Assembly (NCBI GenBank): GCA_030836185.1 | Contig: JAURQH010000025.1 | Span: 1 to 47,681, forward strand | Direction of reading: 5' to 3' | DNA length: 47,681 nt | Source of the DNA: Planctomycetota bacterium | Lineage (GTDB): Bacteria > Planctomycetota > Planctomycetia > Planctomycetales > Planctomycetaceae | In this document: positions 26,298 through 32,574 of the stretch, piece by piece | Position numbering within the stretch: position 1 is the stretch's first letter | Layout: each line of letters opens with the position of its first letter | Translations under genes and position numbers: made by a program | Notes under the pieces: model-generated | Seen by the model: only the letters and a program-made list of their open reading frames with translations | What the model was told of the DNA's origin: nothing | Databases searched by the model: none

Positions 26298-26315
26298 TAA
26301 ATTCTCACAATTTTG

Positions 26316-26693
26316 ATGATCTGTTTGGACACTCCTTTCGTTGTGAATAAAAGGTCCTCAATCAAAAGGCTCATACCAACGATCCACCCCATTTCAGGGT
26401 TTTCTTCACTAATCAGTTTGTACGGACGATTGATGACAGGTCATTGGATCATTCCCGATTATGACAAGGTTTTCCTCAGTCCTCTGATTGTTGGAGGTGT
26501 CTTATTGATCTCCAATCTGTTCGCGACAGCCTTTCCCGAACTCATATCGATCAACGCAGGGATCACAACAGTCGCGAGCGTTTTTCTCACCATCATTCTC
26601 ACGCCCGATCTTGATGAATGGCGATTGACGGGCAACCACCGTATTCATCCCGGATTTGGTATCAATAAAACAGAACTCGTGCAAACACAGTAA
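26316..26693 (+). CDS. Small hypothetical membrane protein
   Basis: A 125-residue reading frame starting at ATG 26316, 18 bp after the sulfatase stop (a TTG one codon earlier is possible). No Shine-Dalgarno site is evident. Two hydrophobic segments, VFLSPLIVGGVLLISNLFAT and INAGITTVASVFLTIIL, flank a short loop. The second is followed by TPDLDEWRL, reminiscent of the PDLD signature in small membrane proteins of the DUF2227 kind, but the rest does not match well enough for assignment. It might be a remnant of a longer gene, since repeat-rich DNA begins right after it. Confidence 0.45.
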   Translation: MICLDTPFVVNKRSSIKRLIPTIHPISGFSSLISLYGRLMTGHWIIPDYDKVFLSPLIVGGVLLISNLFATAFPELISINAGITTVASVFLTIILTPDLDEWRLTGNHRIHPGFGINKTELVQTQ

Positions 26694-26739: not shown

Positions 26740-26761
26740 GTAGGCTGGGACGAGTCCCAGC
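26740..26761 (+). repeat. GTAG-headed REP-like hairpin, copy 1
   Basis: GTAG (26740-26743) is followed directly by GCTGGGAC (26744-26751), a GA spacer, and its perfect complement GTCCCAGC (26754-26761). TTTTGTGTTT follows, so it could also terminate transcripts coming from 26693. A degenerate relative of the same stem sequence occurs at 32553-32574. Confidence 0.75.
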
Positions 26762-26798
26762 TTTTGTGTTTGGGAATACAGTCTACGGTTGGCCTCCT

Positions 26799-26811
26799 GT
26801 GGCTTTGCCAC
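26799..26811. repeat. Small perfect hairpin
   Basis: GTGGC (26799-26803), loop TTT, GCCAC (26807-26811). It has no GTAG head. It is one of several unrelated palindromes in this gap. Confidence 0.4.
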
Positions 26812-26997
26812 TCCGTTTGACGAATAACGGGGCGACCCATTCATTTGAGCCGCTAGCGAACAAAGATGCCCGCCGAGCAAAGTGAGGAAACAAGGGCAAC
26901 TGCGTTAGAAGAAGCATCTCCTTCCGCTAGCCAGTCGATCTGAACTATTTTCTCAGCGCCGCCGCGCCGCAGCGTGAATCAACAAAGGTTTGGTCCT

Positions 26998-27013
26998 GCC
27001 GACTTCTGTCGGC
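26998..27013. repeat. Small perfect hairpin
   Basis: GCCGAC (26998-27003), loop TTCT, GTCGGC (27008-27013). It has no GTAG head. GTCC-type sequence precedes it; no T-run follows. Confidence 0.45.
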
Positions 27014-27059
27014 GACGATAATTTCTTTCCCCCTTTCCGTTTCTTCACGTCGAACGGAT

Positions 27060-27080
27060 GGTCCGCACAGCGGACCCTAC
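27060..27080 (-). repeat. GTAG-headed REP-like hairpin, copy 2 (different stem)
   Basis: On the minus strand GTAG (27080-27077) leads directly into GGTCCGC, loop TGT, and the perfect complement GCGGACC (ending 27060). The stem sequence is unrelated to copies 1 and 3, yet the head, stem length and small loop are the same design. Confidence 0.75.
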
Positions 27081-27140
27081 AAAATTCGTCTTGCCAAACG
27101 TGATCTACCAGAGTTAGCGTTCGTGGTTCGTTGATATTTT

Positions 27141-27213
27141 GAGCCGTCGGCGCAAGCCGGCAGGGAGCATCAAAGATAATCCAACGCTCCCTGCGTGCTC
27201 GCGCACGCGGCTC
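27141..27213. repeat. REPIN-like inverted pair of 28-nt units
   Basis: Two 28-nt units in opposite orientation (27141-27168 and 27186-27213) are separated by 17 nt. Both read GAGCCG at the outer side and CAGGGAGC at the inner side. Between these constant parts each folds into a 5-bp stem with a GNRA tetraloop: TCGGC-GCAA-GCCGG in the left unit, and CGTGC-GCGA-GCACG in the right unit read on the minus strand. The stem bases differ while pairing is kept (one G-T wobble). The two units can also pair with each other. Confidence 0.75.
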
Positions 27214-27277
27214 AATTCACGAACTCGATTTTTGGTAATTTGAATGTCATCACAACTCAACGACGAGCATAGATTCT

Positions 27278-27298
27278 GTAGGGCCGGTTCCACCGGCC
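27278..27298 (+). repeat. GTAG-headed REP-like hairpin, copy 3 (third stem type)
   Basis: GTAG (27278-27281) is followed directly by GGCCGGT (27282-27288), loop TCC, and the perfect complement ACCGGCC (27292-27298). It is the third distinct stem under the same GTAG head within 560 bp. Confidence 0.75.
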
Positions 27299-27489
27299 AA
27301 GGATTATGTTGTCAGCTTTTTGATTCGTCGAGTGTTAAAGAATAACGACCGCTGCAACGTGAGAAAGGAGGCAATCTCGCGTCACATGGAAAATGCGTAC
27401 CGGCATAATGCGTGACTCACTCACAAAATGAAGATCAACGCAAACCCATGAACGACAACAACTTGCTCAAGAGTATGGAACATTCGGGA

Positions 27490-27565
27490 TCAAGATTCGG
27501 CAACATTTGATTCAAGATTTGGTCAACATTCGGTCAAGGTGTGTCCCCGATTCTCCGAATCTTGA
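27490..27565. repeat. 76-bp structure with 11-bp inverted ends and 22-bp tandem units
   Basis: TCAAGATTCGG (27490-27500) has its exact reverse complement CCGAATCTTGA at 27555-27565. The left part consists of two imperfect 22-bp tandem units (27490-27511 and 27512-27533), each starting TCAAGATT and containing CAACATT, with the first bases of a third. It is small and non-coding, like a miniature inverted-repeat element or its remnant. Confidence 0.55.
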
Positions 27566-27597
27566 CATCTTGAAACGGCGGTTGAGTGTTTGACTGA

Positions 27598-27625: not shown

Positions 27626-27784
27626 GACCTGCCGGTCATCTCCAGCCACGCCAACAAGTGAAAAACTACGTCTCGCAAACATCATTATCAAAAACATGAA
27701 AACCGCTGCTTGTACTCGCAGTGTTGACCCTACAAACTATAAGACTCACCATTGATATCTCACCTGCCTGAAGGAAATCCCGCC

Positions 27785-29164
27785 ATGCGTTTCTCCTGCC
27801 TGCTTGCCTGTTGTCTATTTCTAAATTCTTTTGTGAGTGCTGCGGAACCGATCCCGGCTTCCGAACGATGTGTGATTCTGATTAGCGTTGATGGCTTGGC
27901 AAACATTTATCTGGATGACCCCAAAGCTCACCTTCCCACCATTCGCTCAATGGCCAAGAACGGGGCCCGCGCGGATGGACTTGTTTGCTCCTTTCCGACT
28001 GTCACCTGGCCGAATCATACAACATTGGTCACAGGAGTTCCTCCCGGCAAGCATGGCGTGATCGGCAACAATTATCTCGACCGCAACAGCGGTGAGAAAA
28101 TCGCTCTGATTCCCGACCCTCTCTTTGACAAAGACGAAATTCTGCGGGTGCCGACAATTTACGATGCCGCACATCGGCAGGGCTTAGTGACAGCGGGAAT
28201 CATCTGGCCGGCAACTCGGAATGCACGAACTCTCGACTTCACGGTCCCCGATATGTTCGGCAACAATTCATGGAGTGAGTTTGGAACCAAAGTATGGCTC
28301 GACGAACTGCGAGAAGATGGCATTCCAGTCGATGAGTATGGTCGTTGGGTGAAAGAAAAAACGGGCGGCGTTCAAAGAGATTGGCTCTATGCACGCATGG
28401 CTGAAAACCTGCTCAAAAAACACTCTCCCAACCTGATCATGATCCATTTAGTGGAAGTCGACCATGTTCAGCATCGTGTGGGTCCGAAAGAACCCGATTC
28501 CTATTGGTCAGTCAGTTATGCCGACTCGATCATCCAACAAATTCAGGATGCCGCCGCAGATTCCAAATACAAAGATAAAACGACTTTCATCATTTGCAGC
28601 GATCATGGATTCTTCCCGATCGAGAAAAACATCAATGCCAATGTGTTGCTGAAGAAGCATGGCTTGATCGAAGTGAAAGATGGTAAAACCATCAAGAAAG
28701 CGTTCGCCGTCGCTCAGGGTGGTGGGTGCATGGTCTATCTGCTCGATGTCGAAGACAAAATGGAAATCAGCACAAAACTGAAAGCGGAATTCACCAAAAT
28801 CGAAGGAGTGCAACACGTTTTCACTCCTGATGAATATTCAATGATCGGCCATGTTGTTCCTGAAAAAGATGCGAGGCAACCTGATTTGTGGTTGGCCGCT
28901 AAATCAGGATACTCTTTCTCGGAAAGCACCTCGGGCGAAGAAGTCGTCACTGATCGCGGCTCGAAAGCCGGGACACATGGTTTCCTTCCCGACCAACCCG
29001 ACATGCTGGGAACACTGGTTATGTGGGGATACGGCATCAAGCCGGGAACCCAGCTTGGGAAAGTACAAAGTTTGGATGTCGCCCCAACGATGGCCGAGTT
29101 ACTGGAAGTGAAGCTTCCTTCCGCTGATGGAAAACCGTTATCAAAATCTTTGCGCATCAAGTAA
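27785..29164 (+). CDS. Exported nucleotide pyrophosphatase/phosphodiesterase-like protein
   Basis: A 459-residue exported enzyme of the type I phosphodiesterase/NPP branch of the alkaline phosphatase superfamily, which hydrolyses phosphodiester or pyrophosphate bonds with two zinc ions. The signal peptide is MRFSCLLACCLFLNSFVSAA. The metal site starts VILISVDGL, and the nucleophile motif is FPTVTWPNHTTLVTGVPPG with Thr74. Later metal ligands are MIHLVEVDHVQHRVGP, ICSDHGFF and GTHGFLPDQPDM. A threonine nucleophile separates it from the sulfatases, which use formylglycine. ATG 27785 (AAGGA upstream) is preferred to the TTG at 27752. The natural substrate is not evident. Confidence 0.88.
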   Translation: MRFSCLLACCLFLNSFVSAAEPIPASERCVILISVDGLANIYLDDPKAHLPTIRSMAKNGARADGLVCSFPTVTWPNHTTLVTGVPPGKHGVIGNNYLDRNSGEKIALIPDPLFDKDEILRVPTIYDAAHRQGLVTAGIIWPATRNARTLDFTVPDMFGNNSWSEFGTKVWLDELREDGIPVDEYGRWVKEKTGGVQRDWLYARMAENLLKKHSPNLIMIHLVEVDHVQHRVGPKEPDSYWSVSYADSIIQQIQDAAADSKYKDKTTFIICSDHGFFPIEKNINANVLLKKHGLIEVKDGKTIKKAFAVAQGGGCMVYLLDVEDKMEISTKLKAEFTKIEGVQHVFTPDEYSMIGHVVPEKDARQPDLWLAAKSGYSFSESTSGEEVVTDRGSKAGTHGFLPDQPDMLGTLVMWGYGIKPGTQLGKVQSLDVAPTMAELLEVKLPSADGKPLSKSLRIK

Positions 29165-32552: not shown

Positions 32553-32574
32553 GTTGAGACCAGTCCCAGCCTAC
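32553..32574 (-). repeat. GTAG-headed REP-like hairpin, copy 4 (decayed copy-1 type)
   Basis: On the minus strand GTAG (32574-32571) leads into GCTGGGAC, spacer TG, then GTCTCAAC. The left arm is identical to copy 1 at 26740, while the right arm has drifted so that one C-A mismatch and one G-T wobble appear. It sits in the gap between the PSD1 gene and its DUF1501 partner. Confidence 0.6.

Follow-up and report, generated by a model that had tools for sequence, protein, structure and literature searches.

The window, that is, the whole stretch of 47,681 bases of planctomycete DNA analysed here, contains a spacer in which three short hairpins, each headed by GTAG, lie between a gene for a 126-aa protein and a gene of the type I phosphodiesterase family. 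A scan of the full window for a GTAG head followed by a perfect stem of at least 6 bp and a loop of 2 to 8 nt returned these three hairpins only (26740-26761, 27060-27080 and 27278-27298), at the sites and on the strands claimed by the sequence-only reading, while 40 Markov resamples gave a mean of 0.075 GTAG hairpins with a stem of at least 7 bp per window. A decayed fourth copy with the first stem, claimed in the same reading, is confirmed as an element of family F1 with two mismatches, for which the chance expectation was 0 in 100 shuffles. The 126-aa upstream gene had no Pfam match at E 0.001. The features of the locus are as follows.

26313 to 26693, plus strand: upstream gene of the spacer, 126 aa, syntenic in the sister genome G001 (open reading frame, synteny)
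26740 to 26761, plus strand: REP of family F1, GTAG with the 8-bp stem GCTGGGAC and a 2-nt loop (hairpin scan, genome copies)
26828 to 27593, plus strand: mosaic composite that includes the second and third hairpins, every part of which matches elsewhere in the genome (self-genome search)
27060 to 27080, minus strand: REP of family F2, GTAG with the 7-bp stem GGTCCGC and a 3-nt loop (hairpin scan, genome copies)
27278 to 27298, plus strand: REP of family F3, GTAG with the 7-bp stem GGCCGGT and a 3-nt loop (hairpin scan, genome copies)
27333 to 27590, plus strand: non-REP dispersed core repeat of 258 bp whose 3' end is sharp (self-genome search)
27752 to 29164, plus strand: downstream neighbour gene, a member of the type I phosphodiesterase family (PF01663), with a syntenic, 82% identical counterpart in G001
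32553 to 32574, minus strand: decayed F1 copy, with GTAG and the 5' arm whole and two mismatches within the 3' arm (family comparison)

The genome that holds the window (G000; 5,160,223 bases in 107 contigs, 97.9% complete, 0.44% contamination) was searched for exact copies of each hairpin, counted as GTAG, the stem, 2 to 6 nt and the stem again. The hairpins, which had been claimed as repeats, belong to multi-copy families: F1 (GCTGGGAC) has 26 exact copies, F2 (GGTCCGC) 8 and F3 (GGCCGGT) 41. A fourth family, F4, with the stem GGCAGGG, was spotted beside a RAYT gene and has 11 exact copies, and the reversed-pattern controls for all four families gave 0 copies in the same genome. In each family GTAG stands directly 5' of a stem that falls within the 6-13 bp of a GTAG REP element and carries a short loop. 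When palindromes were searched without the tag, which was done for two of the stems, GTAG was kept in 26 of 27 GCTGGGAC palindromes, the sole exception reading GTGG, and in 41 of 43 GGCCGGT palindromes with a 3-nt loop, so the conservation on which the sequence-only reading had made its case depend is borne out. The flanks outside the tag and hairpin are weakly conserved, except for a preferred base at position +1 and some F3 context; because they share little sequence, the tagged hairpin is what counts as the repeat unit. As a hairpin head in general, GTAG showed no enrichment in a 400-kb sample of the genome (parts of contigs C7 and C26; stem of at least 7, loop of 2 to 4), which held 3 GTAG hairpins, all of F1 or F3, where the other 255 heads averaged 1.4 and reached 7 at most. 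Head enrichment was therefore dropped as proof of REPs; what proves the families is that each hairpin recurs exactly across the genome, not how often its head occurs.

The copies occur in both orientations (forward/reverse: F1 16/10, F2 4/4, F3 20/21, F4 6/5) and lie mostly outside long open frames, as predicted from the window. The open-frame test took in 75 copies (26 F1, 8 F2, 30 of the 41 F3 and 11 F4), and 60 of them fell outside frames of at least 200 codons, compared with 285 of 2000 random positions; the other 15 fell inside, compared with 1715 of 2000, and in 8 of these 15 the hairpin precedes the first ATG of the frame. F2 alone had 5 of its 8 copies within such frames and 3 outside. 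Neighbouring copies of one family at most 200 bp apart formed 6 outward, 0 inward and 3 tandem pairs among the 86 copies of the genome, and 5 mixed-family neighbours were found within the same distance. An F2 copy is inserted in frame within a 2-phosphosulpholactate phosphatase gene (PF04029; L036 1318-2088, contig C41). Its counterpart in G002 (L308) has the copy in common, with 21 of 21 bases identical in a gene that is itself 84.6% identical, and the counterpart in G001 (L309) is without it, its aligned length being 36 bases less.

A profile search of the genome with PF01797 returned six Y1 genes, and the RAYT of contig C82, used as query, found itself and five further loci. The C82 RAYT is an open frame with an F4 hairpin on either side, 44 bp before the gene and 8 bp behind it; it scored 184.6 bits against the model of REP-associated tyrosine transposases (REP_Tyr_transpos, cut-off 80), and at E 0.001 a single PDB relative came up, E. 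coli TnpA-REP (4er8, E=1e-42). The C45 RAYT, an open frame of 203 codons that is 55% identical to C82 and carries the motifs DHLH and YIHYNP in its translation, has one F3 hairpin overlapping its estimated start and another 7 bp after its stop. The C67 RAYT has F1 hairpins (GCTGGGAC) at both ends and is frameshifted in its first third. The remaining RAYT copies are broken or truncated (L213 163-492, L212 2148-2492 and L214 2064-2357). Contig C101 holds a shortened RAYT fragment that matches best to the RAYT with F1 flanks from another planctomycete (L142), and both F1 RAYT loci of the genome are broken; C15 retains the last 101 residues of a C45-like RAYT (88% identical) with F3 7 bp behind, and C43 carries a broken RAYT.

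No F2-flanked RAYT was found among the RAYT loci of this 97.9%-complete assembly. F2 stands on both sides of RAYTs in the sister species G002 (same genus), in G005 and in three named planctomycete MAGs (L129, L130 and L131). The C43 fragment was considered as the lost F2 RAYT and given no assignment, since it scores almost equally against F4, F2-like and other RAYTs. RAYT genes with a copy of their family's hairpin at each end, the companions that the sequence-only reading had said to look for, are present in the genome for F1, F3 and F4, but its proposal that each family has its own RAYT in one genome stands only in part: GGCCGGT has an open frame and GCTGGGAC a broken gene, and for GGTCCGC none was found in G000. 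The three outcomes that it had named as refuting the idea were single-copy hairpins, an unconserved GTAG and a species devoid of RAYTs; the genome shows repeated hairpins, a conserved tag and RAYT genes.

The linkage between stem and RAYT lineage was examined over 115 RAYT loci (own genome, relatives, 80 named). The same 6-nt stem stood behind GTAG on both sides within 250 bp at 60 of the 115 loci, compared with 0 of 720 mock genes, all set in G000; at the remaining 55 loci no such shared stem was seen. Before the tree was built, 12 short or interrupted loci were taken out, which left 103. Of these, 20 lacked a GTAG hairpin within 120 bp, and the shuffling test omitted a further 4 near-duplicates, so that it covered 79 labelled RAYTs. 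The stem changed 37 times on the tree of these 79, compared with a mean of 64 and a minimum of 59 in 1000 shuffles, and 20 times among the 38 planctomycete rows alone (shuffled mean 28.9, minimum 24). In 18 of the 38 planctomycete rows, the 6-nt stem is shared with the nearest labelled RAYT (shuffled mean 3.4, maximum 12); in the other 20 it differs. The tree was made by a quick method, and 45 of its 96 inner branches fall below 80. On it, all five F3 rows group in a single branch (SH-aLRT 93), as do the two F1 rows (SH-aLRT 85) and seven rows with GGTCCGC or GGTCTGC (SH-aLRT 98), while L129 and L131, which also have GGTCCGC, are placed apart from that GGTCCGC clade, on branches with weak support. 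Over the 79 RAYTs, stem and RAYT phylogeny go together. Membership in the phylum is backed by relatives of the same family, whose RAYT proteins are identical to those from MAGs labelled Planctomycetaceae or Planctomycetota.

A search of the spacer in the genome that holds it gave matches at other places for at least 766 of its 1058 bases. GCAAACA occurs at both spacer ends (26680-26690 and 27673-27682) and was spotted after the fact as a possible target duplication. The core repeat, which is the most regular portion of the spacer, is present at 40 or more places in the genome, the window copy counted, with a mean pairwise identity of 80% among 34 aligned copies, and several alternative modules lie upstream of it. 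Its 3' end is often followed by CGGGAAT, and several of its copies are found at contig ends. At least 19 copies occur in G002, where a GTAG hairpin with a stem of at least 7 was present in 2 of 10 stretches with cores, neither of them of F1 to F4; across the 40 genomes searched, the only further core matches were short fragments in G001 and G006. At the syntenic locus of G001, about 93 bases separate the neighbour genes, compared with 1,091 to the corresponding ATG in G000, and no GTAG hairpin was found there. Judged from this one site, an insertion in this spacer is a simpler reading than a deletion in G001.

Several other identities were considered for these sequences. No transposase was found for the core, and BLAST against the six Y1 loci (L001-L006) gave only short matches, to other composite modules. 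No sign was found in support of the core being an attC-like site or an IS end. As a structured RNA, the core gave an RNAalifold energy of -22.3 compared with a mean of -3.0 in 60 column shuffles, but such shuffles also destroy plain palindromes, so that the energy difference carries no conclusion, and the covariation term gives no support; this candidate was set aside. An Rfam search of the spacer at E up to 5 returned four matches, all to eukaryotic families and all far below the gathering score, and an RNA reading of the spacer was dropped because no match came near that score.

How the hairpins came to be repeated might be explained without a RAYT acting on single hairpins, if the copies had spread mainly as passengers of a larger composite repeat. 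Ten of the 41 F3 copies, the window copy included, lie just upstream of a listed core, all in the orientation of the core, and the window spacer is such a composite, absent from G001. However, 31 of the 41 F3 copies, 25 of 26 F1, 7 of 8 F2 and all 11 F4 lie outside the 1-kb stretch that precedes the 3' end of each of the 40 listed cores, a list that gives a lower bound, and the contexts of the F1 copies share little sequence, which makes spread chiefly as passengers improbable. The placement of most copies outside long open frames also suits ordinary intrinsic terminators, or mRNA-stabilising RNA hairpins, selected at gene ends with GTAG as an incidental neighbour, and the F1 copy of the window is indeed followed by TTTT. 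Yet 4 or more T among the 6 bases that follow were seen at 5 of 26 F1 copies and are rare in the other families (1 of 8 F2, 0 of 29 F3, 0 of 11 F4), identical units of 21 to 22 bp recur in unrelated contexts with a GTAG that is conserved on just one side, and RAYT genes are flanked by these same hairpins. We rejected the terminator explanation, most copies having no T-tract, and consider it very unlikely; REP copies may take on a role in RNA later. Finally, the families would be an artefact if assembly or binning had produced them in this draft genome of 107 contigs, several core copies of which lie at contig ends, but contamination is 0.44%, the same stems flank RAYTs in other genomes, including the single-contig G005, and the in-gene F2 copy is common to G002, so that we see hardly any chance of this.

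We are thus highly confident that the hairpins of the window are REP elements of three families with cognate RAYTs, most likely non-autonomous, single-strand substrates of the Y1 (HUH) transposase RAYT. Judging by what is known of the RAYT family, the enzyme would bind, cleave and copy the hairpins and mobilise them in trans. A RAYT gene would sit between copies of its own hairpin and would recognise the GTAG foot together with a particular stem, and it would then spread hairpin copies in trans, some of them as outward-facing pairs (REPIN-like). Different stems would coexist because different RAYT lineages coexist, and the spreading of a family would end once its RAYT decays or is lost.

Other Y1 genes are also associated with repeats. 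The RAYT-like gene L003 has at its ends perfect 29-nt inverted repeats beginning CACTGGCGGGC, without GTAG (1118-1146 and 1867-1895), and the 23-nt palindrome of these repeats recurs in the composites L236, L241, L244, L245, L247 and L282, the last of which overlaps L236. L004 (1294-1818) is a Y1 gene with the motifs NHVH, WT and YVDEAQ, which resemble those of planctomycete class 3 in the available text of PMC6006769, and it lies between imperfect inverted repeats. Imperfect inverted repeats (75-82%) occur at L004, at L001 (IS200 type) and at L002, and none were found at the Y1 gene L006. The pattern suggests that several Y1 enzymes may feed the spacer mosaic. It is conceivable, though we think it rather unlikely, that the long spacers of the genus are nested hairpin insertions from several Y1 enzymes (GTAG-type RAYTs, L003-type and class-3-like) and that the resulting composites, in which the 258-bp 3' core is fixed, are themselves spreading as one more element, so far undescribed; if so, REPs would have two ways to move, through their own RAYT and as passengers of composites.

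GTAG repeat families have been described in eight phyla including Planctomycetes, and Rhodopirellula baltica has coexisting GTAG families and, flanked by repeats, a 'plethora' of tyrosine transposase genes, according to the available portion of Di Nocera 2013 (PMC3733652). The sequence-only reading had held such elements to be undescribed for the phylum, and this priority is lost to that paper, which already names GTAG repeats in Planctomycetes and several families with transposases in R. baltica. In the same portion, GTAG families have repeat-specific RAYTs (REPtrons), REPs also occur inside genes, and the tag is conserved at more than 90% in most families. The available text of PMC6749651 held nothing that bears on the question. 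The present hairpins resemble those systems in the GTAG foot, stems of 6-9 bp, loops of 2-3 nt, several families per genome, repeat-specific transposases, the same phylum and outward dimers as the commonest; they differ from those of R. baltica in belonging to another planctomycete genome, and the likeness is one of description. For Pseudomonas fluorescens and Stenotrophomonas, Nunvar 2013 (PMC3686654) treats the classes of REPs, the RAYTs cognate to them and the loss of RAYTs; in its available sections, as here, a REP class is tied to a RAYT, families outlive a broken or lost RAYT, and the RAYT is present in a relative. Unlike the tens to over a thousand copies given there, each family here has 8 to 41 exact copies, and the hosts are planctomycetes. 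Neisseria has mosaic intergenic repeats with CGTC (PMC3733652, same portion), in which, as in the window, REPs are interleaved with other families in long spacers; by description, they differ from the GTAG REPs and the composite with a fixed 3' core found here.

The enzymes are similar as well. E. coli TnpA-REP (4ER8) and C82 are alike over two long stretches, between which lie 21 residues in one enzyme against 4 in the other. Among the five GTAG-region residues of the E. coli enzyme named in the available part of PMC6006769, W94, Q95, E100 and H101 are identical in C82, whereas the fifth, R104, is E. The DHLH and YIHFNP of C82 resemble Y1 subclass 2.2 (DHLH, YIHYNP), a likeness by motifs, but that subclass has WE in Table 1 of the same part and C82 has WQ. 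All the hairpin findings fit the systems of PMC3733652 and PMC3686654, as far as their available text describes them, and the principle is already known.

What the locus offers is a compact natural case of it. A single genome combines four REP stems with three RAYT lineages assignable to them, and in related planctomycetes the same stems accompany intact RAYTs. Natural pairs make the recognition of stems by RAYTs testable, such as C45 and C82, which are 55% identical and go with GGCCGGT and GGCAGGG, respectively; meanwhile, the genus offers sites both with and without the repeats.
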